Shown here: positions 3,583 through 24,317 of the stretch, piece by piece
Position numbering within the stretch: position 1 is the stretch's first letter
Layout: the number at the start of each line of letters is the position of its first letter
Origin: Saccoglossus kowalevskii
Lineage: Eukaryota; Hemichordata; Enteropneusta; Harrimaniidae
NCBI RefSeq assembly: GCF_000003605.2
Contig: NW_003109978.1
Coordinates: 400,556 to 424,971, forward strand
DNA: 24,416 bases
Direction of reading: 5' to 3'
Notes under the pieces: model-generated
What the model saw: the letters and a program-made list of their open reading frames with translations, nothing else
Databases searched by the model: none
What the model was told of the DNA's origin: nothing
Made by a program: the position numbers and the translations under genes

Positions 3583-3586
3583 TTAA

Positions 3587-3651
3587 GAGCAAATGTCTGT
3601 AAGAATTAAACAATGGTGGCAGGCGCAAAACAAATAGATTTGGCTCATATT
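3587..3651 (+). repeat. left terminal inverted repeat
   Basis: Begins GAGCAAATGTCTGTAAG directly after TTAA (3583-3586). It aligns with the reverse complement of 7270-7333 over 65 bp with about eight mismatches and one single-base gap. The outermost and innermost parts agree best (TTTGGCTCATATT is shared at the inner end). Homology stops at the TTAA on the outside, which fixes the element boundary. Confidence 0.9.
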
Positions 3652-4850
3652 ATTATCAAAGATGAATCTATGTATTGCCTATCAAATGAAGTTTCGGGTC
3701 ATGACGTTCGGTCACGTGGTTGTCCCTGAAATTAGGCCATTTTTTGCATTTGACGCAAATTGTAAATTTTAGCTTTGTTCAACGTACGCAACGTGACGAA
3801 GTGAACAATAATTCTAATTCAACTTCTGGTCAAATGTACATCTATGTATTGTCTATCAAATAGATGCTTGTAGAGTTTCGGGTCATAACGTGAAGTCACG
3901 TGGTTGGCCCTGAAAGTAGGCCATTTTTTACATTTGACAAAAATTGTGAATTTTAGCTTTGTTCAACGTACACTACGTGACGAAGTGAACAATAATTCTA
4001 ATTCAACTTCTGGTCAAATGTACATCTATGTATTGTCTATCAAATAAATGCTTGTAGAGTTTCGGGTCATAACGTTAAGTCACGTGGTTGTCCCTGAAAG
4101 TAGACCACTTTTTGCATTGTGAATTTTCAAAGTATGCTACGTGAAGAAATGAAGAAGAATTCTGATTCAACTTCTGATGAAATGTACATCTTTGTATTTT
4201 CAACTTATTATCAAAGGTGAATCTATGTATTGCCTATCAAATGAATGATTGCAGAGTTTCGGGTCATGACGTTCGGTCACGTGGTTGTCCCTGAAATTAA
4301 GCCATTTTTTGCAATTTGACAAAAATTGTGAATATTAGCTTTGTTCAACGTACGCAACGTGACGAAGTGAACAATAATTCTAATTCAACTTTTGTTCAAA
4401 TGTACATCTAAGTATTGTCTGTCAAAGAAATGCTTGTAGAGTTTCGGGTCGTAACGTTAAGTCACGTGGTTGTCCCTGAAAGTAGGCCACTTTTTGCATT
4501 GTGATATGCCACGTGAAGAAATGAAGAAGAATTCTGATTCAACTTCTGAACAAATGTACATCTTTGTATTTTTTACTGAATATATGCTTGTAGAGCTTCG
4601 GGTCATGACACCTAATCACATGGTTGTCCCTGAAAGCAGGTCACTTTTTGTGCTCAACGAAAATTGTGAATTTTAGCTATGTTCAAAGTATGCTACTGTA
4701 CCTGCTACTGTACCTGATTCTAACTCAACTTCTTCTTAAGCCAGTCATCTATGTGCTGCCTATCAAGTAACTGCTCGTAGAGTTTTAGGGAGTGACGTTT
4801 AGTCCCGGGAAGTCTCTGAAAATAGGCCATATTTAGACATTGTGTACCAA
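3652..4850 (+). repeat. left subterminal ~185-bp tandem array
   Basis: Seven copies, marked by the motif GTTTCGGGTCATAACGT or a close variant beginning at 3691, 3875, 4059, 4256, 4441, 4595 and a diverged one at 4782. Spacing is 184, 184, 197, 185, 154 and 187 bp. Intact copies carry GGTCACGTGG or AGTCACGTGG, an inverted-palindrome E-box CACGTG, then TTGTCCCTGAAA. Another shared block is CAACGTACGCAACGTGACG. The short copy at 4441-4594 has lost a segment. The reverse-oriented array is at 6421-6850. Confidence 0.9.
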
Positions 4851-5203
4851 CTGAATGTTAGGAACGTTTGTTCCCGTGTTAGTGTTCCTTTTGATATGCA
4901 TTATAGAACATAGCTGAATTTAAAACAATATCTTAGTTTCTTTATTACAAATTGATATTTATACGGCGCTTAACTAAACTTTAAGTTAACACAGTAAGTG
5001 CATTATCAGTCATTGTAATACCAATCTAATATACATTACACATTGACAATGTTAAAAGAAACAAACTGTTCAAGAGGCATCTTCTCCAAAGTAACGGAAC
5101 ATTCTAACAACATTTATCTAACAAAGCCTACATGAGAACACACAAACCTCTACGTCTTAGTACACTCTAGTTTTACACAAACCAGGTAGAAACTCAAGTA
5201 CTC
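4851..5203. other. transposon interior, no feature
   Basis: Sequence between the left array and the 3' end of the decayed gene. AT-rich and without a recognisable domain or repeat. It would be the 3' untranslated region and tail side of the element's gene. Confidence 0.5.
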
Positions 5204-6434
5204 TCAAAGTTTTGCAACAAATGCCGACATGCGTCGACGATCAGTGATGGAGGATACGTCGACATCAAAGTGCTCGCAAATGGACCTTAATACTACTATG
5301 CCAATCTCATACAGGCCTCCCCTCTTTGCCAAGTCACAAAGGTTGAATATATCGTACAGGACAGGGTGACATAGTTCGACGTTGGTGATGATTTCCTCCT
5401 GTATGCGACTGTTAGAGGATTCGATTACAGCAGGGGCCTGTTGCTCCTCCTCCTCAGAACCTTCTGAAGCGTTATGGCGTTTAGCTGTCAGTCGGGAGAA
5501 ATAGCTAGAGACTTGCTGGCCAGTCAAAAAGTCCTGCACCTGGAATAGCTGTTGGCCTTGTGCCTTCTTCAGACTGCGCAGTGCCCATCCTTGCTGTGGG
5601 AAAGGTGTTGTTCTATTTACTTCTAAGGATGGCTCTACATGTGGCACTTCTGACAGACCCTGTGCAAGCTTTTCTGCGTACTTCAACTTTGTCTTGTCCA
5701 GCAAAGTCTCTCTTTCAAGGCGACGTTTGTGCTTTCCGACAGCTACATGAGCCTCCAGACCTTTGCATGTTTTATAAATCTTGACGCAGCTCTCTTCTGG
5801 ACAAGGCAAAAGGCTACCATTGGCTGGGTTGCACAGTCTCATCACTTGCCGCATCTTCATCAGAATCTGACTTCTTGTTAAGCTTGCACCTTCATCTGCC
5901 TGGACCTAATGGGTTGAAATGCAGAACCAGGATTTGACGGCTGACTGGCAATCTTCAGTAGCGGTGGTTCTATGGCAGGCAATCGCAGCCAAGGGACAAT
6001 ATTCCCTTCTCCGATGTTGTATGCTCGCCAGACACGTATACCTGCATCACTAAACTCAAAGAGTTTGGTGATTCCACTCAGTTTTATGGATGTCGCTGCA
6101 AGATCTGCACCCACTTCACACAGAAAGACTTTTCTCCCGGATTTCTCCCGGGATTTGTGATAACACCAAGCATTGTCACTTCGGAGGTATATGGACTTGG
6201 ATAGATTCCTTGCTGGTATGCTACCGTGATGTGCCATGATATGCCCCGCTTTCTAAACCAGCCTGTTTGGCTTTCCGTGTACTTCCTTGGCAGGAACTTC
6301 ATTTCCCAGTCCAGTACCAGAAGCACACTTGTATTATCCAGGCTATTCAGAAGTACATGCCAGGCGTCATTTTGATTACACTTTGTCCCGTAGAGTACTT
6401 TGAATATGGCTAACATTTTTTTTGGCAAATGCAA
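5204..6434 (-). pseudogene. decayed gene of the C2H2/'MKFLP' family, candidate transposase
   Basis: Three overlapping or adjacent open frames together resemble one protein family that I know as long uncharacterised proteins in coral, hemichordate and lancelet genomes. In order: 6434-6084 holds LDWEMKFLPRKY and KRGISWHITV; 6237-5878, another frame, holds YLRSDNAWCYH and GIRVWRAYNIGEGN; 5860-5204 holds a C2H2-like finger (CPEESC, then EAHVAVGKH), ERETLLDKTKLKYAEKL, GWALRSLKKA, LTGQQVSSYFSRL and a C-terminal HPVLYDIFNLCDLA block. Compared with my memory of the family, the stretch between WHITV and SDNA, a Cys/Asp-Arg block, and the segment between GWAL and the SSYFSRL block are missing, so the copy is internally deleted as well as frameshifted (one shift near 5895-5920). 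The invariant-looking Asp residues in LDWEMKF and SDNA could be two acidic residues of an RNase H-like fold. That is inference. Its position inside TTAA-flanked inverted repeats is what suggests transposase. Confidence 0.7.
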
Positions 6435-6850
6435 AAAAGTAGCCTACTTTCATGGACAGCCACGTCACTAAACTTTACGACCCACAACTCTACAAACATT
6501 CATTTGATAGACAATACATAGATCTACATTTGATCAGAAGTTGAGTTAACGTTCTAATTCACTTTGTCCAGTATAGTACTTTGAACATGGCAAAAATTCC
6601 AAAAATTCGCCTAGTACAAAAATGACCTACTTTCAGGGACAACCACGTGACTAAACATTACGACTCGAAACTCTACAAGCAATTATTTGATAAGTTATGC
6701 ATAGATCAACATTTGGAAAGAAGTTGAGTTAGAATTCTATTTTACTTTGTCATGTAGAGTACTTTGAAGATGGCTTACATCCACATCTTTGGTCAAGCGC
6801 AAAAAAAATACCTACTTCTTGGTACGAGCACGTATGAACCAAACAAGTTA
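6421..6850 (-). repeat. right subterminal ~185-bp array, inverted
   Basis: Two clear copies of the left-array repeat in reverse orientation, with the marker motif (reverse complement of GTTTCGGGTC) ending near 6490 and 6673, about 183 bp apart, and a third degenerate copy running to about 6850. The shared blocks TTTCAGGGACAACCACGTG and CTCTACAAGC are the reverse complements of left-array blocks. Its upstream edge cuts into the 5' end of the decayed gene, so the gene's N-terminus may have been replaced by repeat. Confidence 0.85.
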
Positions 6851-7269
6851 CCAACTTTTGGAAGATATAATTTGAAAGATATTTTAATTATCTATGTATA
6901 GTACAAATTTCAAGTAAAAAAAATTCAAGAGCGGCACTAATAGCATTACAAAAAATTACATATTTTAGAAGCTAGAAACATTGCTGCATTGTTTTCAGGC
7001 TTCCAAGAAACTGAAGTCTATCTCTTTCACACTTTCACAACAATTTTCAAAAAGCCAAAAGCCAAAAGGTCTTATTTTGTTTTGACGATAAGCTCAAAGG
7101 TGTGGCAGAGACAATGCCGCGAATTATGCTGATTCCCGTGTTTTTGAGATGCAAAAATTGGGAAAAATGGCCAGAAATCTTTATTTGTCTGTTACCATGG
7201 CAACAATGAGTTTTGATCTAAAAGAAGGCTATTTTGAGGGGATGTGGACCAAGTACTACCACTGTGCAA
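6851..7269. other. transposon interior right of the array
   Basis: AT-rich sequence with no counterpart at the left end, where the array starts directly after the inverted repeat. The two halves of the element are therefore asymmetric. A short plus-strand open frame (7149-7337) runs into the terminal repeat and has no recognisable domain. Confidence 0.5.
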
Positions 7270-7333
7270 AATATGAGCCAAATCGATTTTTTGATCCCTG
7301 CCACCATTGTTTGATCCTTACAGATATTTGCTC
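7270..7333 (-). repeat. right terminal inverted repeat
   Basis: Reverse complement begins GAGCAAATATCTGTAAGG and pairs with 3587-3651. It is followed by TTAA (7334-7337). The next bases outside differ from those outside the left end, as expected for flanking DNA. Confidence 0.9.
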
Positions 7334-7345
7334 TTAAAAGCTTGT

Positions 7346-7433
7346 TTAAAGGGCGGTGTTCGTCGTGCCGCGCATGTGCGACATTTGGATTGATAAACAG
7401 TTATTTCCCCCATAATCCAATGCACAGCACAAG
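7346..7433 (-). repeat. dispersed repeat 'GCATTGGATTATGGG', copy 1
   Basis: On the minus strand this reads GCATTGGATTATGGG, then an A-rich piece with TTTAT, a CATGCG-type block and ACACCGCCC. The same order of blocks occurs at 13430-13507 (plus) and more loosely at 8847-8927 (plus). It lies immediately outside the right end of the TTAA transposon. It may be a small non-autonomous element or SINE fragment. The class is unknown. Confidence 0.55.
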
Positions 7434-7451: not shown

Positions 7452-7751
7452 TTCGCTGGTTTTCCTGGTCCTCGGCATCCTGTTAAGCTATCATTAAAAT
7501 TATTAGAACGCGCATTTGCAATAATTGAGGGCGCTATTGCAAACTGTTCCTTAAGTGCTTTAACATATGTTTCATTCTACTGTTGTCCGATTTTACAAAG
7601 CACGAGTACATATAAAGTAACAGTGTTTTCGTACATTTATTTGCAATTTACTGTCTGAAAAAAAAAGAATATTTTTTGTCAAAACGGGAAGAATATGCAT
7701 AAGTTTTGCTTACTATGAATTTGCGTGGAGAAGCAAATACAACATTGCACT
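7452..7751 (+). repeat. 300-bp dispersed repeat, copy 1
   Basis: Begins TTCGCTGGTTTTCCTGG and ends AATACAACATTGCACT. A second copy in the same orientation is at 9563-9845, about nine in ten positions alike with several small indels. No inverted ends, no open frame and no LTR-type TG...CA ends are seen, so the element class is unknown. Confidence 0.85.
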
Positions 7752-8846: not shown

Positions 8847-8927
8847 GTTGGGAGAACGCATTGGATTATGGGTAAAATCAATGTTTATCTAAGCAAATCT
8901 TGTTTGGGTAAACCGCTCTTTTATTAT
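8847..8927 (+). repeat. dispersed repeat 'GCATTGGATTATGGG', copy 2
   Basis: Carries ACGCATTGGATTATGGGT, then ATGTTTATCTAAGC and AAATCTTG. It matches the first half of the copies at 7346-7433 (minus) and 13430-13507 (plus); the second half is diverged. Confidence 0.45.
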
Positions 8928-9562: not shown

Positions 9563-9845
9563 TTCGCTGGTTTTCCTGGTCCTCGGCATTCTGTTAAGCT
9601 ATCATTATAATTATTAGAACGTGCATTTGCAATAATTGAGGGCGATATTGCAAACTGTTTAACATGTGTTTCATTCTACTGTTGTCCGATTTTTACAAAG
9701 CACGAGTACATATAAAGTAACAATGTTCGTACATGTATTTGCAATTTACTGTCGGAAAAAAAATATTTTTTGTCAAAACGGGAAGAATATGCATAAGTTT
9801 TGCTTACTATGAATTCGCGCGGATAGGCAAATACAACATTGCACT
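9563..9845 (+). repeat. 300-bp dispersed repeat, copy 2
   Basis: Direct copy of 7452-7751, slightly shorter because of internal deletions (notably about 13 bp after GCAAACTGTT). Both limits are sharp: flanking sequence is unrelated on both sides. This indicates an interspersed element of defined length and not a large segmental duplication. Confidence 0.85.
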
Positions 9846-16700: not shown

Positions 16701-19700
16701 TTGGAATACATAGTTTCTGGCAGGCTAGCTTGGGTATAATTCCATCGTTATCGAACTATTATTCAAAGTAATGATGATGATGATGATTATGATGATGATG
16801 ATGAATGTGTTACAGAGCTAAAGTTTGAAGTTGTTCCCTGGTTGGTTTCCATTAACTGTTACTTCATAAATTCATATATAATCTAAGACATAAAATGTAC
16901 ATTTAAATCTAAAATACGTTCACATGCCTAGTAGTTTGGTAATGTGGAATTTTTAACCAACTCACCCACAGAACGGCTCTTTCGTTTTTTGTTAATCCTC
17001 GAATAAACAACATAGATAATAACAACAACTGCAACAACCACCGCAACAATTACACCAATTATAACAGCCAGAGACAATGTAGATACAGTTGGTGCTGTAA
17101 ACAAATATACTTATAGTTGTAAAATGTTGGGATTTTTTAAAAGGCAGTGGTTGTCGCGGCGCGTCCTGTTCGATATGGAACTTATAGCGACGTATACAAC
17201 GCGTGTAAAATACATTGTTTGTTACATGAAATTCGAACACGCGCTGCGCGACGACCACCGCCGCGCTTTAAGCAACGCTAATAATATCACTGACTTGCGG
17301 TTAATTGTCACTTTAGTTCAATTAGGTGATTTGATTTGAATTACGTAATATGATTGTCACTCACCAGATTCTGATACATATAATTTAATGACAAGACTGT
17401 GTTCCGAAAATATATCGCTTACAGCAATACACGTGTATTTCCCTTCGTTTGTCTTTGCGACGTCTCTAAGCGTCAACGTCGATGTAACGAGCGTACCATC
17501 TCGTACAGTGGTGACGTCTGAAGCGATGGATTTCATATTAGTATCCTTCCATACGACGGATTCAACGGATGGGTTAGAATCTACTGTACACACCAAGAAT
17601 GCATCTTCGTTGTGTTTCACTGTGACATCCTCACCAGTGATCAAAGGTGAATCTACAAGGACAACATCAGAAAGACGAATATAATCAATTGCACACACCG
17701 GGATGAGATATTACTGAAAACACAGCACTCAATCAACTCATGATCTTGTGATAATTGTAACACATACAGCACAAATGTGATTTAGTAAAATGTTTTTGTT
17801 TATTTTTCTGTTGACGAAATATAAACAACTCAAATAATACTTACAATATATTTGAATATCCAGTTTCGTACTTTCTGGCTGAAGTTCTGTATTATCATAA
17901 AATGTAATATATGATTTACAGTAATATGTTTCATTTAATTTACTACTAGCAGTGTTGATGACATTGATAAAGATAACCCCGTGTTCATTTATGTCTTCAC
18001 GTATTACAGTATCTCCATCAGTAACAGTAACACGGTATAACTCCATCTTGTAAGGATCTGGGACACCACCCGATATTGAACACGTGATGTTAAATACATC
18101 GCCTCTGAGAGGTGGCTCTGAAGGGCCAGTGATACTAACATTTCCAGGATCTGTGAATATGCAAATTAGGAATGATAAAGTGTATCTACCACAATAAGAA
18201 TATAAACAGTTATACACCACTATCTGCCGAGTGTCTGTATGTAATAATAACAACTACAACACAATATGTATGTTCTATTAGATTTCATTATTCAATATAG
18301 TATGTTAATAGATGGCTACCCATAGTTTATAAAATAAGAGATTGGAAACTTTAAAATGTTTTATTAATTAATTTTGTTCGTTTTCAAATCAGAAATACAG
18401 CAATAGGTATACTCACATTGTACATTTAAATACTCTGATGCACTTGTTGTTCCATCACTACCGTCATGAAATGTATTAGTTGCAGTACATGTATATATCC
18501 CTGTAGAATCACGTGTTATGTCCATTATTGTATACACTCCAGGGATATGTAAATCTACGCCGTCTTTGTCCCACGTGATATCAACAGTCATTGGGTTAGC
18601 ATCCAACACGAAGCAGGTCATCGATATATTATCACCTTCTTTGCCAACATACGGCATCGACAATTTCACAGTTGGGGAGTCTGGTGGTGAGATATAGCAT
18701 TTACATAATGAAAATTAATTGATGTACATTTCATTTTCATGTGCTTATGCAAATTATAACAGTTGTCTTTAAGGAAGATGTGCAACATACCAACAAATCA
18801 TTAGAAAAAAATCATCGTTACCTACATTGAACATCAAGATACTTCGTGACATTCACAGAACCAACGCTACCGTCGTAGAATATGTTTACAGCTGAACATG
18901 TATAATTTCCTGATGCATTTCTTGGGACGTTAATTAACTCAAACAGTGATGTAACACCGAGATCTATTCCATTCTTAAACCATGCGATATTTTCTACCAT
19001 AGGATTGGCATCTTCTACAGAACAATTTAATGTGATATCGGAACCCTCTTTGGCGATTTCCGACATTGTCACACTCACAGACGGCAGATCTATGTATTCA
19101 AATTTGTTAACAATGTAATTTCCTGGAGGTATTTGTTTGTTCACTGTACTGGTATGTGTGTATAATTTTATATAATCCTCCGTTTTTTCGAACGAATGTG
19201 ACGTCACCGTGGACGAGTAACTCCTCGTATAGCAGCAGTAAAAATCCGAGCCACAGAGAGTCACGAGTCAGTGATGAAATCACATGAGGAGTACCGGAAA
19301 ATTGTATATTTACATATTCGTAAACACAGTATTCTAAGCGAAGATAGAGTCAGTCGGCAAAATTTAGGCAAGGTTAGGTTACCGGAAGCATACTATTTTT
19401 TGTGTTTAGTCTAATGTAGTTTGAATTTTTTTTTATTAATTTAACTTTTTTATACGACTTTTAACTTACAAATTATTATACTTTAAGCTACTCTATTTTA
19501 GCATAAATTAATTTCACTGAAAAGGCAGTTTGGGTGTTTTGTATGAAGTATAGTTTCAATGATTCTTGGCGAGTTAAATAATTTTTACTGGATTTTATTT
19601 CGACTAGTGCATCCTTTCTGCGTAAATACCAAAACTTAATTTCAAGTAAAAAAGAGTACATTTCAGAAGTTAAAACTATTGCCTCGTTACAAATAGTAAA

Positions 19701-22700
19701 ATTATTTTTGAAATTGTGAAAATTATATTTGCTCGGATTGTTCAAGCATATATCCAAGTTGTTAATTAATGAAATACAGTCACCATGGCGTTAATGAAAC
19801 GTGACTGTATAATATGCACTACATGGTTTTTAATATTTAAATAAGAAACACCTATTATACTCACATTGTACATTTAAATAATTTGATGCACTTGTTGTTC
19901 CATCACTACCGTCATGAAATGTATTAGTTGCAGTACATGTATATATCCCTGTAGAATCACGTGTTATGTCCATTATTGTATACACTCCAGGGATATGTAA
20001 ATCTACGCCGTCTTTATACCACGTGATATCAGCAGTCATTGGATTAGCATTCAAAACTAAGCAGGTCATCGATATATTATCACCTTCTTTGCCAACTTCC
20101 GGCATCGACAATTTCACAGTTGGAGAGTCTGATGGTGAGATATAGGGTTTACATAATGGGAATTAATTGATGTACATTTCATTTTCATGTACTTATGCAA
20201 ATTATAACAGTTGTCTTTAAGAAAGATGTACAACATTTGAACAAATCATTAGAAAAAACATCGTTACCTACATTGAACATCAAGATACTTCGTGACATTC
20301 ACAGAACCAACGCTACCGTCGTAGAATATGTTTACAGCTGAACATGTATAATTTCCTGATGCATTTCTTGGGACGTTAATTAACTCAAACAGTGATGTAA
20401 CACCGAGATCTATTCCATTCTTAAACCATGCGATATTTTCTACCATAGGATTGGCATCTTCTACAGAACAACTTAATGTGATATCGGAACCCTCTTTGGC
20501 GATTTCCGGCATTGTCACACTCACAGACGGCAGATCTATGTATTCAAATTAGTTAACAATGTACATTTCCTGGAGGTATTTGTATAGATATATGTGTATA
20601 ATTATATATAATCCACCGGTTTTCGAACGAGTGTGACGTCACCGCGGACGAGTGACTTCTCGTATAGCGACAGTAAAACTCCGAGTTGCAGAGAGTCACA
20701 GTCGAAGATGGCGTCACATGAGGAGTACCGGAATCTTGTATATTTATCATATTCGTAAATCAGTCTTCTAAGCGTAGATAGAGTTGGTCGACGCAATTTA
20801 GGTATGGTTGGGTTACCGGAAGCATACAATTGTACAATTGTTTGTGTTTAGTCTAATATGGTTTGATTTTTTTCGATAAATTTAACTTTTCTATACAACT
20901 ATTAATTTACAAATTATTATACTGTAAACTACTTTAGTTTAGCATGAATTAATTTTCACTGAAAAGACTGTTTTTGGTGTTTTGTGTGAAGTCTATTTTC
21001 AATGACTCTTGTTGAGTTGAATATTTTTTTTACTTTCAGCGTAAATAGCAAAAATGAATTCCAAGTGCAAAAAGTACATTACAATAGTTAAAACTATTGC
21101 CTCGTTTCAAATAGTAAAATTATTTTTCAAATTGTGATAATTATATTTATTTTTCATTTGTTCAAGTATATATCCAAGTTGTTAATCAATGAAAAAAGCA
21201 GTCACTGTGGCGTTAATTAAACATGACTATATAATATGCAAACTGGTTTATATTATTTAAATTAAAGAACACCTATTATACTCACATTGTACATTTAAAT
21301 AATTTGATGCACTTGTTGTTCCATCACTACCGTCATGAAATGTATTAGTTGCAGTACATGTATATATCCCTGTAGAATCACGTGTTATGTCCATTATTGT
21401 ATACACTCCAGGGATATGTAAATCTACGCCGTCTTTATACCACGTGATATCAGCAGCCATTGGATTAGCATCCAAAACTAAGCAGGTCATCGATATATTA
21501 TCACCTTCTTTGACAACTTCCGGCATCGACAATTTCACACTTGGAGGGTCTGGTGAATAGCATTTGAAGAACGAATATTGAAAAAGTTAACATTTCGTGA
21601 CATTACGATTTAAAGTGGCAATGATCTAGCTGGTAACTACTAATTTTGTTATGAAACAGCTCACGACAAACTTCAAATGTATTAGTCCGCCATTTTAAAA
21701 CCAGCTGGGTTTGCTAAAATGTTACTGACAAACCTGAGGCTTGCTCATACTGGTATCATATTTTATAACACAGTTTTAAATACAAGCATGCAATCTTTTG
21801 CAAAAAGTTATTTTCAAGACACAGAGAATTACATCTGTTGGTGATCAATTGTGACCCGCGCCTTGATACAAATGATCATTAATGTTATCAGGAATGACAT
21901 GATAAGCACCAGTGTTGCCAATCATAAACTGTATCTGTATTTCTCATAGCTTTAGAAATACAATTTTGTATGAGGATGACTCACATGATCCAAAAAATGA
22001 GGGATAAAATATACTCAAATTGCAAAACAAAACATTGTTCGAGATCCACTCACGAAATGTGATACTTGTATCAAGTTTGACTGACATCGGCCAGTGTATT
22101 TTCATGAAATCCGTGCTATGTGGGACAATATCATTTTTTTTATCCAACCATGGCCAACATATAAATTACTGGTTAATTTGAATAAAAATAAGAAACACAA
22201 GTAATAAAAATAATATATAATATATATATAGTCTGAGGTCGAAATAAACAACGTGCCACGGCAATCCATCATGGTTACGATGATCCTATTTATTGCTGTG
22301 AAATTGTTGTACGATTACACTCTCTCTCCCGCAAAGACATCGCTCATTCAACTAAACTCCATTTCGAATAAAACGTTACCTACATTGAATATCAAGATAC
22401 TTTGTGATATTTTCAGAACCAACGCTACCGTCGTATAATATGTTTACAGCTGAACATGTATAATTTCCTGATGCATTTCTCGGGACGTTAATTAACTCAA
22501 ATAGTGATGTAACACCGAGATCTATTCCATTCTTAAACCATGCGATATTTTCTACCATAGGATTGGCATCTTCTACAGAACAACTTAATGTGACATCGGA
22601 ACCCTCTTTGGCGATTTCCGGCATTGTCACACTCACAGACGGCAGATCTACGTATATAAATTCGAAGATGAGTGCATAATATTATGCTTGTATAAGAATT

Positions 22701-24317
22701 ATTCTATAAAACAATTTACATGAAACGTCAATAATAATATAGTAGAAATTTCTTCTAATCTTCTAATGCATTTATTTTCTGATTCTCTGGTCAATAAAAT
22801 GTCATATACTCCTGAATTGTTATTGAAATGCTAGGTTTACACGAATGATGTGTATGATATGTATCTCCGCGGCACTTACACTGAACATTGAGATGATGAG
22901 TGACATTATAGATTCCAATACTACCATCATAAAACGTGTTTATTGCAGTGCACGTGTAATTTCCAGTCTCCAATCTCGTTATATCTGTCATCTCATACAC
23001 TGTGGGAATATGTAAATTAACTCCATCTTTGAACCAGATGACGTCATCGGTTGTTGGATTGGCATCTTCCACTCTACACATTAGCGTTATGTTTTCTCCT
23101 TCCTTGCTAACAGTTGGCATGGAAACGGTAACATTTGGGGAATCTGGTAAAGACATTTGTTACAAGAGAAGTTAAGCTTCGTATCATAAGAGTGTACTAC
23201 GAAGTACTATATTGTAAAACAATAGAACACTTACACTGAACATCCAATATAATATGATTACAACCAGTGGCATCTATATCGTTCCAGAAAGTATTACGTG
23301 CACAACAGGTATAGTTCCCGTTATCCTGTCTTTGAACGCCATGTATTTCCAATCTCTCGCCATAAATGATGCCACTGAGGTCGTGCTTCCAGTAAACAGT
23401 CGCATATGGGTTCGCGTCAACATTGCAATATGCGTAGTACGAATTCCCTTCAACAACGTACCATTGCGTTGACGCATTGACAGTGACGGTGGGCGAATCT
23501 AAATACAATGATGTTAAAAGTATTCAGAAAATGGGATTCCTTATAATGAATTTAATGAAAGACTAAGTAGGAATGTGTTATTGGTTTTTGTAAAACATTT
23601 ATTGGTTTTCCTTGCATAAGCAAATGAGATGACTAACTAGTCTTAGAACATAATTAATATTACTGTTCGAAAACGTACACTGTACATTGATATTTATAAT
23701 CTGTTCCGCTGAGCCCAGTTCCTCGTCATACAATCTGTTAGACGCACTGCACGTATATGTACCAGTACGATTTCTGTGGACTTCATCGAAGTGTAGTTGG
23801 GACTCATGAAGAATAAAACCATTCGGGTACTTCCACGTTATGTTTGCATTCGGATTGGCATCGGCTGAACAGTTCGACGTGAAATCATATCCCTCTATCA
23901 CAGTCCCGTTGTTTTGATCAAGCACTGTGAGAGTCGGTGGATCTAATGAGACAAAAAATAAGCCAGACGAGTGTAAGAACGACCTCGGCTGAAAAGAAAT
24001 CATTTAATTTTAATTTTGTTAACGTTACATGATGACACAGAAATCGTACTTACACTGGACATCATGGAAGGAGGTGTAATTCACACTTCTGATCGTATTA
24101 TCGTGTAATATGTTGACTGCTGTACACGTATAATATCCAGTGAATTCTCTGTTGATGTTTACGATTTCGTAGACTGCAGGGACGTTGAGATTAACTCCGT
24201 CTCTTAACCATGTGATGCTATTAGGCACAGGATTGGCGTCGGTTACAGAACAATTGAATATGACGTTCATGCCTTCTTTGCTGAATAATGGTACGTTCAC
24301 TTCCAATAATGCGGGAT
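13684..24317 (-). CDS. multi-Ig-domain single-pass membrane receptor, spliced, 5' and 3' incomplete
   Basis: Gene-level entry. Exons, 5' to 3': 24317-24054, 23942-23679, 23498-23235, 23143-22880, 22647-22384, 21549-21286, 20535-20272, 20128-19865, 19089-18826, 18680-18417 (each 264 bp), 18150-17845 (306), 17652-17365 (288), 17094-16966 (transmembrane), possibly 16669-16654, then 13930-13857 and 13734-13684. All have AG acceptors and GT donors. From the first Ig exon to the transmembrane exon every junction is phase 1, and each Ig exon boundary splits a Tyr codon giving YPP, YSP or YLP. That yields twelve Ig domains, about 1120 residues, before the tail. Domains have the Cys...Trp...YxC pattern and the DANP motif after the first Cys, as in Ig proteins related to CD22, nephrin or Kirrel. 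Known Ig receptors of this layout mediate cell adhesion or recognition at the plasma membrane; that role is inferred here. The signal peptide lies beyond the right edge, and the end of the tail was not found. Confidence 0.85.
13857..13930 (-). CDS. putative cytoplasmic-tail exon (74 bp), open in two frames
   Basis: Good acceptor TTTTCCATTTCAG and donor GAAG/GTATCA. Spliced directly to the transmembrane exon it reads ALRTETSAKSKRPPPQ and on to INNTK, a basic, proline-containing tail with a possible SH3-type RPPPQ, and leaves in phase 0. Entered from the microexon it reads GIENRDFSQIEK and on to KQHE and leaves in phase 1. Both frames are open through the exon. Length not divisible by three makes the microexon decisive for the tail. 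Confidence 0.6.
13931..14604. other. intron, left part
   Basis: Part of the 2.7-kb intron of the Ig gene tail. No exon recognised. An ACTCCGTAATATT motif occurs twice (about 14221-14234 and 14329-14342). Confidence 0.4.
14605..15530 (+). mobile_element. LINE fragment, reverse transcriptase motif B to C-terminus
   Basis: Frameshifted 3' part of an endonuclease-reverse transcriptase of the type often annotated as 'craniofacial development protein 2-like'. Seen in order: FDIKTEVKQSCNMSVF (motif B, canonically tGVrQGCxlS), TGNRWKFTSKLNFEDDLALI with the catalytic xDD as FEDD (14789-14800), LKVNSQKTKIMKINARN, FTKSGGG, FMQLNKIWSSNK, LYGSETWQIAKGDKRKLNTF, RRWTFIGHILREDSTS, RKRGRPKTTW, KERNKAGWKSWTEATVAEAD. 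The 5' endonuclease half is absent, so it is truncated; numerous frameshifts and stops show decay. It lies in the tail intron of the Ig gene in antisense orientation. Confidence 0.88.
15531..16653. other. intron, right part
   Basis: No exon, RNA gene or repeat recognised. The plus-strand open frame at 15765-15998 has no recognisable domain. Confidence 0.4.
16654..16669 (-). CDS. candidate 16-bp microexon
   Basis: TGATCACCAAACACGG lies between a strong acceptor (T-rich run then CACAG) and a strong donor (GTGAGT), 296 bp downstream of the transmembrane exon. Entered in phase 1 it adds Val-Ile-Thr-Lys-His and leaves in phase 2. It is too short for homology support and could be chance. Its inclusion shifts the frame of the next exon. 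Confidence 0.4.
16771..16804. repeat. (GAT)n microsatellite
   Basis: About eleven ATG/GAT triplets with one interruption (ATT), inside the intron after the transmembrane exon. Confidence 0.9.
16966..17094 (-). CDS. transmembrane exon (129 bp)
   Basis: Acceptor TTTGTTTACAG and donor GG/GTGAGT. It encodes a short stalk (PTVSTLS), then about 25 hydrophobic residues (LAVIIGVIVAVVV, AVVVIIYVV) and a basic stop-transfer segment YSRINKKRKSRSV. The charge step fixes the orientation: Ig domains outside, tail inside. Phase 1 on both sides, matching the Ig exons. No ITIM, ITAM or PDZ-type motif is in this exon. Confidence 0.88.
17141..17267. mobile_element. 127-bp palindromic MITE-like element with TTAA flanks
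   Basis: Imperfect inverted repeat: 17144-17173 pairs with 17233-17261 (GCAGTGGTTGTCGC against GCGGTGGTCGTCGC, and TGTTCGA shared at the inner end), with about 60 bp of loop. TTAA lies on both sides (17137-17140 and 17268-17271). The arms are much more GC-rich than the surrounding intron. Small size, palindromic ends and TTAA flanks fit a non-autonomous DNA element. Its end sequence differs from that of the 3587-7333 element. Confidence 0.6.
17365..17652 (-). CDS. Ig exon L (288 bp), membrane-proximal
   Basis: Acceptor TTGTCCTTGTAG and donor TCTG/GTGAGT. It carries the complete Ig signature: FLVCTVDSNP, VVWKDTN, LTLRDVAKTNEGKYTC. The SNP motif replaces the DANP of the other domains. It ends with the short linker YVSES leading to the transmembrane exon. 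It lacks the DVQY ending of the 264-bp exons, as expected for the last domain. A 98-aa plus-strand open frame opposite it is a shadow. Confidence 0.88.
17845..18150 (-). CDS. Ig exon K (306 bp), divergent Ig domain
   Basis: Acceptor TGCATATTCACAG and donor ATATT/GTAAGT. Begins YPGNVSITGPSEPPLRGD and has the paired Cys of an Ig fold (FNITCSISG and ETYYCKSY). At the position of the conserved Trp it reads KMELYRV, so the core Trp is absent. It ends STKLDIQIY. At 102 residues it is longer than its neighbours, with an extended central part (TDGDTVIREDINEHGV), closer to C2-type Ig domains. N-glycosylation sequons NVS, NIT and NET are present. Confidence 0.85.
18417..18680 (-). CDS. Ig exon J, type Y (264 bp)
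   Basis: Acceptor TCACCACCAG, donor CAAT/GTGAGT. Type Y: KLSMPYVGKEGDNISMTC, then LDANPM, then DITWDKDGVDLHIPGVYTI and STGIYTCTATNTFHDG. It is the last and most diverged of the three Y exons, differing from H at about six residues, including TWDKD for TWYKD. Cys, Trp and YTC are intact. Confidence 0.9.
18826..19089 (-). CDS. Ig exon I, type X (264 bp)
   Basis: Acceptor AATACATAG, donor CAAT/GTAGGT. Type X: LPSVSVTMSEIAKEGSDITLNC, split here only by position, then VEDANPM, NIAWFKNGIDL, NASGNYTC and NIFYDGSVGSVNVT. It differs from exon G at only two residues (Ser for Pro in MSEIA, Asn for Ser before the first Cys), which creates an extra NCS sequon. A second possible donor (GTAACG) lies 4 bp further on; the 264-bp rule favours the first. 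Confidence 0.9.
19865..20128 (-). CDS. Ig exon H, type Y (264 bp)
   Basis: Acceptor TCACCATCAG, donor CAAT/GTGAGT. KLSMPEVGKEGDNISMTC, LNANPM, DITWYKDGVDLHIPGVYTI, STGIYTCTATNTFHDG. The DANP motif is NANP here. Differs from exon F at three residues. The short intron (143 bp) separates it from exon G upstream. Confidence 0.9.
20272..20535 (-). CDS. Ig exon G, type X (264 bp)
   Basis: Acceptor AATACATAG, donor CAAT/GTAGGT. SVTMPEIAKEGSDITLSC, VEDANPM, NIAWFKNGIDLGVTSLFEL, NASGNYTC, NIFYDGSVGSVNVTKYLDVQ. All Ig core residues present; sequons NAS, NYT and NVT. Confidence 0.92.
21286..21549 (-). CDS. Ig exon F, type Y (264 bp)
   Basis: Acceptor ATTCACCAG, donor CAAT/GTGAGT. The exon starts AC instead of AT, still completing a Tyr codon (T+AC). 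KLSMPEVVKEGDNISMTC, LDANPMAAD, ITWYKDGVDLHIPG, STGIYTCTATNTFHDG. It follows an 834-bp intron that is unrelated to the short introns preceding H and J, so the duplication boundary lies at its acceptor side. Confidence 0.9.
21550..22383. other. 834-bp intron between exons E and F
   Basis: Unrelated to the 143-145 bp introns at the equivalent X-to-Y positions. Contains a TA-rich run (about 22210-22231). No exon recognised; the minus open frame at 21944-22147 has no domain. Confidence 0.6.
22384..22647 (-). CDS. Ig exon E, type X (264 bp)
   Basis: Acceptor TATATACGTAG, donor CAAT/GTAGGT. SVTMPEIAKEGSDVTLSC, VEDANPM, NIAWFKNGIDL, NASGNYTC, NILYDGSVGSENITKYLDIQ. It differs from G at about five residues, so it is the oldest or least homogenised X copy. 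It precedes the duplicated block. Confidence 0.92.
22880..23143 (-). CDS. Ig exon D (264 bp)
   Basis: Acceptor TCTTTACCAG, donor CAGT/GTAAGT. SPNVTVSMPTVSKEGENITLMC, VEDANPTTDD, VIWFKDGVNLHIPTVYEMTDI, ETGNYTCTAINTFYDGSIG, HHLNVQ. It blends X-like (FYDGS) and Y-like (LHIP.VYxxxDIT) features and may resemble the ancestor of the two types. Confidence 0.92.
23235..23498 (-). CDS. Ig exon C (264 bp), with two extra cysteines
   Basis: Acceptor TTGTATTTAG, donor CAGT/GTAAGT. SPTVTVNASTQWYVVEGNSY, YAYCNVDANPYATVYWKHD, DNGNYTCCARNTFWNDIDATGC is broken here for length, ending IILDVQ. Core Cys, Trp and YTC are intact. One extra Cys directly follows the YTC Cys and another lies in DATGC, so an additional disulfide is possible. 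Sequons NAS and NYT. Confidence 0.9.
23679..23942 (-). CDS. Ig exon B (264 bp)
   Basis: Acceptor TTTTTGTCTCATTAG, donor CAGT/GTACGT. PPTLTVLDQNNGTVIEGYD, SNCSADANPNANITWKYPNG, HRNRTGTYTCSASNRLYDEE, then INVQ. Sequons NGT, NCS, NIT and NRT make it the most glycosylated-looking domain seen. Confidence 0.92.
24054..24317 (-). CDS. Ig exon A (264 bp), most 5' in window
   Basis: Acceptor TTATTATAATAG, donor CAGT/GTAAGT. PALLEVNVPLFSKEGMNV, FNCSVTDANPVPNSITWLRDG, VNLNVPAVYEIVNI, FTGYYTCTAVNILHD, SFHDVQ. Its phase-1 acceptor shows that at least one more coding exon lies to the right of the window. A 61-aa plus-strand open frame opposite it is a shadow. Confidence 0.9.

Follow-up and report, generated by a model that had tools for sequence, protein, structure and literature searches.

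What mobilised a TTAA-flanked element that carries, between its ends, a broken gene with an MKFLP motif and a C2H2 finger? The question is raised by positions 3583 to 7337 of a 24,416-nucleotide stretch of the Saccoglossus kowalevskii genome (assembly GCF_000003605.2, contig NW_003109978.1, positions 400,556 to 424,971), the whole of which is referred to here as the window. We propose that this is very probably a degenerate copy, with internal deletions, of a cut-and-paste family specific for TTAA, and that the MKFLP/C2H2 gene is what remains of the transposase belonging to that family. The argument proceeds from the ends of the element to its relatives in the host genome, then to the gene, and finally to the transposon group to which the family may belong.

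The element and its family in the host genome

The element occupies window positions 3587-7333 and is bounded on both sides by TTAA, at 3583..3586 and 7334..7337, with GAGCAAATGTCTG ends. The left terminal inverted repeat (GAGCAAATGTCTG..., 3587..3651, plus strand) and the right one (7269..7333, minus strand) are both multi-copy ends in the host genome. They pair over ~65 bp in total, with 42 nt at 93% identity, counted from TTTAA inwards, plus 23 nt more at 91%. Aligned without gaps from GAGC, they agree at 35 of the first 42 positions, whereas the best of 2000 Markov-generated pairs agreed at 21 of 42; the match between the two ends is far beyond chance. Inside the ends lie subterminal arrays. 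The left array (3645..4807, plus strand) consists of diverged units of ~184 bp, with repeats at 3690-4500, and the right array (6375..6806, minus strand) contains inverted copies of these units at 6443-6774. This anatomy, i.e., TTAA on both sides, inverted ends of about 65 bp, inverted subterminal arrays and a minus-strand C2H2/MKFLP gene between them, had been described in the initial annotation from the window alone and is confirmed, with the gene present in broken form.

The ends define a small, multi-copy family in the 572-Mb host genome. Searches with the left end gave at least 31 matches, window included: 20 extend to the terminus, and the other 11 correspond to internal repeat units; the right end gave at least 22 matches, window included, and 20 of them reach the terminus. 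There are 10 exact occurrences of the 17-mer TTAAGAGCAAATGTCTG, every one among the 21 ends that we compared, and with at most one mismatch it is present at 21 places compared to 5 for the reversed control. Three of the latter 21 places (C2041, C2607, and C2850) lie outside the end comparison, which covers 21 ends from the window and 15 other loci, including one left end from locus L018, that of a 304-bp element. TTAA adjoins 17 of these 21 ends, while in the loci used as background it occupies 978/136821 positions (0.7%). In pairwise comparison (210 pairs each), identity averages 0.84 for the 40 bases just inside the TTAA and 0.28 for the 40 bases outside it. The copies, whose similarity stops at the TTAA, are independent insertions with precise boundaries, and the TTAA-flanked element proposed in the initial annotation is one of a multi-copy family.

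Both ends were found in five copies: the window element, L009, L010, L011, and the 304-bp element in L018 (5429-5732), a miniature inverted-repeat transposable element (MITE). The flanks read TTAA/TTAA in the window, L009, L010, and L018 and TTAA/GTAA in L011, so that four two-ended copies show TTAA on both sides, the pattern of a short target-site duplication. The MITE shares the 13-bp GAGCAAATGTCTG ends of the family; further inward than these 13 bases, the MITE's left end has little likeness to the other ends. The remaining eleven fetched loci have a single end each. Inward of the end, L013, L015, L017, and L022 contain a run of N, and in L016 the contig ends. L012, L014, L019, L020, L021, and L023 contain no N, yet a second end was not found within the stretch fetched, and these copies are therefore truncated, eroded or interrupted. 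Inverted ends in several independent insertions with unrelated flanks are the hallmark of a cut-and-paste transposon with terminal inverted repeats.

Empty sites, by which the initial annotation had proposed to test insertion at TTAA, were sought by comparing five joined sites with 73 records (own-genome loci and the window). One was recovered, a diverged paralogous site. When the flanks of the L011 copy are brought together with one TTAA between them, they match L019:2121-2299 across the junction with 127/180 columns identical (E = 1e-16), and this related sequence lacks the element and has one tetranucleotide, TAAA, at the junction. Separately, the right flank of the window element (7452-7751) recurs 2.1 kb downstream, at 9563-9845, with ~90% identity; this repeat begins 118 bp from the element junction and, therefore, does not represent an empty site.

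The MKFLP/C2H2 gene and its link to the family ends

That the MKFLP/C2H2 gene belongs to the element family is supported. A search of the host genome with the 218-residue open reading frame (ORF) that covers the C2H2 finger and C-terminal part gave 15 protein matches in eight loci, the best candidates being scored: C446 (the window), C2503, C3691, C2730, C2858, C2071, C211, and C2617. A family end is present at all eight. Both ends were found at C446, C2730, C2858, and C211, one clear end at C2503, C3691, and C2071, and one eroded end at C2617, where TTAT is followed by GATCAAATGTCTG and 27/40 positions match compared to at most 22 in shuffled controls. Among the matches listed, i.e., the best candidates scored, no gene copy lies outside the element family. 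Nine end-bearing loci, L014-L022, gave no match to the 218-residue ORF.

In the window, the remains of the gene, a putative transposase, span 5204..6434 on the minus strand and were delimited from ORFs and sister copies. They comprise three ORFs of 218, 119, and 116 residues in shifted frames. The codon for the putative first catalytic aspartate (D1), in LVLDWEMKFLP, was counted from the ORF to 6309..6311, and the motif also occurs in C2503, C2617, and a relative of the family at C1605; the codon for the putative second catalytic aspartate (D2), in YLRSDNAWCYHK, was likewise counted to 6175..6177, and a pattern match places the C2H2 finger CPEESCVKIYKTCKGLEAHVAVGKH at 5729..5803, all on the minus strand. 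Compared to sister copies, the window gene has lost ~97-119 nt near 5563 and ~200 nt near 6150, and the stretch with the putative third catalytic aspartate is deleted. The segment between D1 and D2 is shorter in the window, C2503, and C2617 copies than in C1605. An intron was ruled out as the cause of this difference because DNA is missing from these three copies rather than added relative to C1605. Based on the window deletions and the shortened D1-D2 segments, the close-family copies seen are deletion derivatives, and the intact element that probably mobilised them is now gone or unassembled.

The C1605 relative (L027) carries a 208-residue ORF that retains the core of the protein. L027 and the window family have in common MDWAMKFLP and SDNAGCYH...DPQ.GK...CDR, with 43-56% identity in the aligned stretches. 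In L027, D1 lies in MDWAMKFLP, D2 in SDNAGCYH, and a third aspartate in CDR; they follow one another in RNase H-like order, with 82 residues between D1 and D2 and 40 between D2 and the CDR aspartate. The three aspartates are common to L027 and L013, and CDR was read in L027, L009, L013, and L038. A crude propensity profile gives a strand leading up to D1, then two more strands and a mixed stretch, a strand ahead of D2, one further strand, and a helix after CDR. The succession of motifs and propensities would be that of a transposase with an RNase H fold; it describes an order rather than a fold. Divergence from L027 is higher at third codon positions than at positions 1+2 in two comparisons for L013 (0.63 v 0.32 and 0.75 v 0.37) and one for the window (0.66 v 0.42), an excess that fits past selection on the MKFLP protein.

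The C-terminal part of the gene follows the core. In L011, a single 221-residue ORF joins, in one frame, the sequence that follows the third residue to the greater part of the C2H2 finger. ORFs of the window, L009, L012, and L013 contain the C2H2 pattern in full, which is lacking in the L011 and L027 ORFs tested. The C1605 relative of the tail is identical at 17/36 residues (E = 7e-8 in a single comparison). The end of the tail in L009 (2639-2971, minus strand), LTGQQVSSYFSRLAAKRRK, resembles by eye the third helix of a homeodomain and its spacing; sister-copy ORFs covering the gene tail gave no homeodomain match in Pfam. A 73-residue ORF lies upstream on the same strand in C1605 and matches only itself in the host genome; from its strand and a resemblance, we take it to be the N-terminal part of the gene.

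Because a family end is present at all eight gene loci, and because D1, D2 and the third aspartate stand in RNase H-like order, the gene looks like the element's own transposase, of the DDD type (three catalytic aspartates) and unlike that of piggyBac. This is in line with the initial annotation, which had read the MKFLP/C2H2 gene as the transposase of a TTAA transposon; its association with the ends and the DDD-like order agree with that claim, while the RNase H fold for which it proposed to search had no match in Pfam or the PDB among the pieces scanned. ORFs of at least 80 residues were listed in the spans of 13 loci, and nine of them (from L009, L010, L011, L012, L013, and L023) were scanned together with one L027 ORF; including the three window ORFs, the scans touch seven of the eight gene-bearing copies, C2617 being left out. 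Within this set, no Pfam transposase family matched at E up to 10, and the MKFLP/C2H2 pieces stayed below every Pfam-A cut-off. As to whether other copies carry a standard transposase in place of this gene, Pfam recognises none in the three window ORFs and in nine ORFs from six of the seven other gene copies, with C2617 outside the scan. A sub-threshold match to zf_Hakai (0.035) overlaps the C2H2 finger. Sub-threshold matches to L1R_F9L (0.26), DUF4798 (0.023), Autophagy_act_C (0.22), WD40_WDHD1_1st (0.016), and Raffinose_syn (0.11) were set aside as chance, as was a PDB match to one viral glycoprotein chain (E 0.51).

Searches beyond the host gave no relative. Viral contigs yielded no related locus, the DWAMKFLP pattern occurs in 0 viral stretches, and neither phages (searched with a window ORF) nor plasmids (searched with the L027 ORF) gave a match. 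The DNAGCYH pattern occurs in 1 viral and 34 prokaryote stretches, which we judge to be chance occurrences because tblastn of the L027 protein against all 35 gave nothing below E 0.13 and because their contexts are unrelated. Own-genome pattern matches on C3774 and C998 were likewise dismissed as chance, the L027 protein being unmatched in their 3-kb loci.

Proposed mechanism and placement among TTAA-specific transposons

We suggest a mechanism in which the catalytic domain is an RNase H-like DDD domain, with D1 in MDWAMKF, D2 in SDNAG, and the third acidic residue probably in CDR. Binding to the GAGCAAATGTCTG ends and to the subterminal repeats would probably fall to the C2H2 finger and basic tail that follow the catalytic domain. 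An intact protein, encoded by copies unseen in the assembly, would excise the element, insert it at TTAA and, in that way, duplicate four bases. Deleted copies and the 304-bp MITE may be moved in trans by this intact protein. Through this mechanism, a protein family that in the pieces scanned lies below every Pfam-A cut-off would be tied to a concrete function, i.e., transposition at TTAA.

Several observations weigh against this interpretation. No intact family member was found, and every copy seen is broken. In C1605, the gene is split, with core and tail in separate ORFs, and no terminal inverted repeat or other end was recognisable for this relative, one side of which is N (L037 5673-9901). 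CDR is missing from L011 and L023 as read, small indels having shifted the frame there, and neither Pfam nor the PDB matched the ORF pieces scanned to a transposase of the RNase H type. At the level of the target site, four of the 21 ends adjoin TTAC, TCAA, GTCA, and TTTA instead of an exact TTAA. The L019 empty site is old (71% identity) and its target reads TAAA rather than TTAA, and for four of the five insertions the comparison with the 73 records gave no empty site.

The same observations can be read differently if the copies are non-autonomous elements that a Kolobok transposase moves in trans, i.e., members of Kolobok in which the MKFLP gene is accessory or captured. Excerpts of PMC9587614 give TTAA as the Kolobok target and 5'-RR...YY-3' as its ends, a definition with which the TTAA target and GA...TC ends of the present family agree, and they describe accessory proteins in some Kolobok lineages. 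However, the MKFLP gene itself shows the DDD-like motif order, and the C/DxxH motif that follows D2 in Kolobok was found in 0/2 readings tested (L027 and L013). In the stretch from D2 to the final acidic residue, the place of a zinc finger in most Kolobok lineages, both readings have only isolated cysteines. ORFs from seven of the eight gene-bearing copies contain no Pfam transposase, the presence of a Kolobok model in Pfam being unchecked. We regard a Kolobok origin as quite unlikely. An element derived from piggyBac that had taken up a foreign gene would share the TTAA target-site copies and differ in ends and protein: the family ends are GAG...CTC (GAGCAAAT), whereas piggyBac ends are given as CCC...GGG in the excerpted text of PMC5704228. 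Pfam scans of the three window ORFs, the nine family-copy ORFs and L027, all from incomplete copies, detected no piggyBac domain, and this alternative is extremely improbable.

If the gene is the family's own transposase, as we prefer, the remaining question is to which group the family belongs. The family is probably a member of Sola3, a group that already has a name. Sola3, which belongs to the Sola superfamily and was reportedly introduced by Bao et al. in 2009 as a group of DDD transposases with a TTAA target, combines a 4-bp TTAA target duplication with a DDD transposase unlike those of other families, and the family described here also targets TTAA. Sola3 membership is probably more likely than membership of an unrecognised group. 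The suggestion in the initial annotation of a distinct or unrecognised group is not supported, given that Sola3 is TTAA-specific and has a DDD transposase; Kolobok, too, has the TTAA target and RR...YY ends, as cited above. If the family is Sola3, the present data provide a useful anatomical record of ends, arrays, MITE, empty site, and motif order.

A further, as yet unnamed TTAA superfamily, characterised by a D-82-D-40-D core, a C-terminal C2H2 finger, a tail spaced like a homeodomain, and long inverted subterminal arrays that serve as binding sites, is an alternative that we consider doubtful, the TTAA targets and DDD transposase of Sola3 arguing against it. It is favoured by the failure of any Pfam-A family to reach its cut-off on the pieces scanned and by an excerpt of PMC5704228 that lists the site of Sola insertions in baculovirus as AT, not TTAA, with the subgroup unnamed. 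It also draws on the open-licence literature, where no TTAA transposon with an MKFLP/C2H2 gene was recognised in the portions available of PMC5199201, PMC8634313, PMC4455052, PMC10294476, PMC5753468, PMC4735498, PMC3878927, PMC9976928, and PMC2836005, and where a term search within PMC3310237 found nothing. This literature negative is weak because the open-licence literature omits most subscription papers and Repbase Reports. Should the family fall outside Sola3, it would represent a separate TTAA-targeting machine, which is of interest since TTAA insertion by piggyBac underlies genome-engineering tools.

Surroundings of the insertion

Short repeats adjoin the element on its right side, with window positions 7342-7386 recurring at 17229-17275 and 7383-7423 at 8858-8898. 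One of these pairs is inverted, 1.4 kb apart, and the short repeats beside the insertion are possibly the remains of another element with terminal inverted repeats. Positions 1-439 of the window form a tandem array of ~19 copies of a 22-23-bp unit. Positions 16992-24306 contain, on the minus strand, tandem ORFs with immunoglobulin domains (two were checked, Ig_3/I-set). In this region, 300-nt units recur at a spacing of ~1.4-2.1 kb and are 90-99% identical, with one copy at 62%; the region represents a recently duplicated immunoglobulin cassette.

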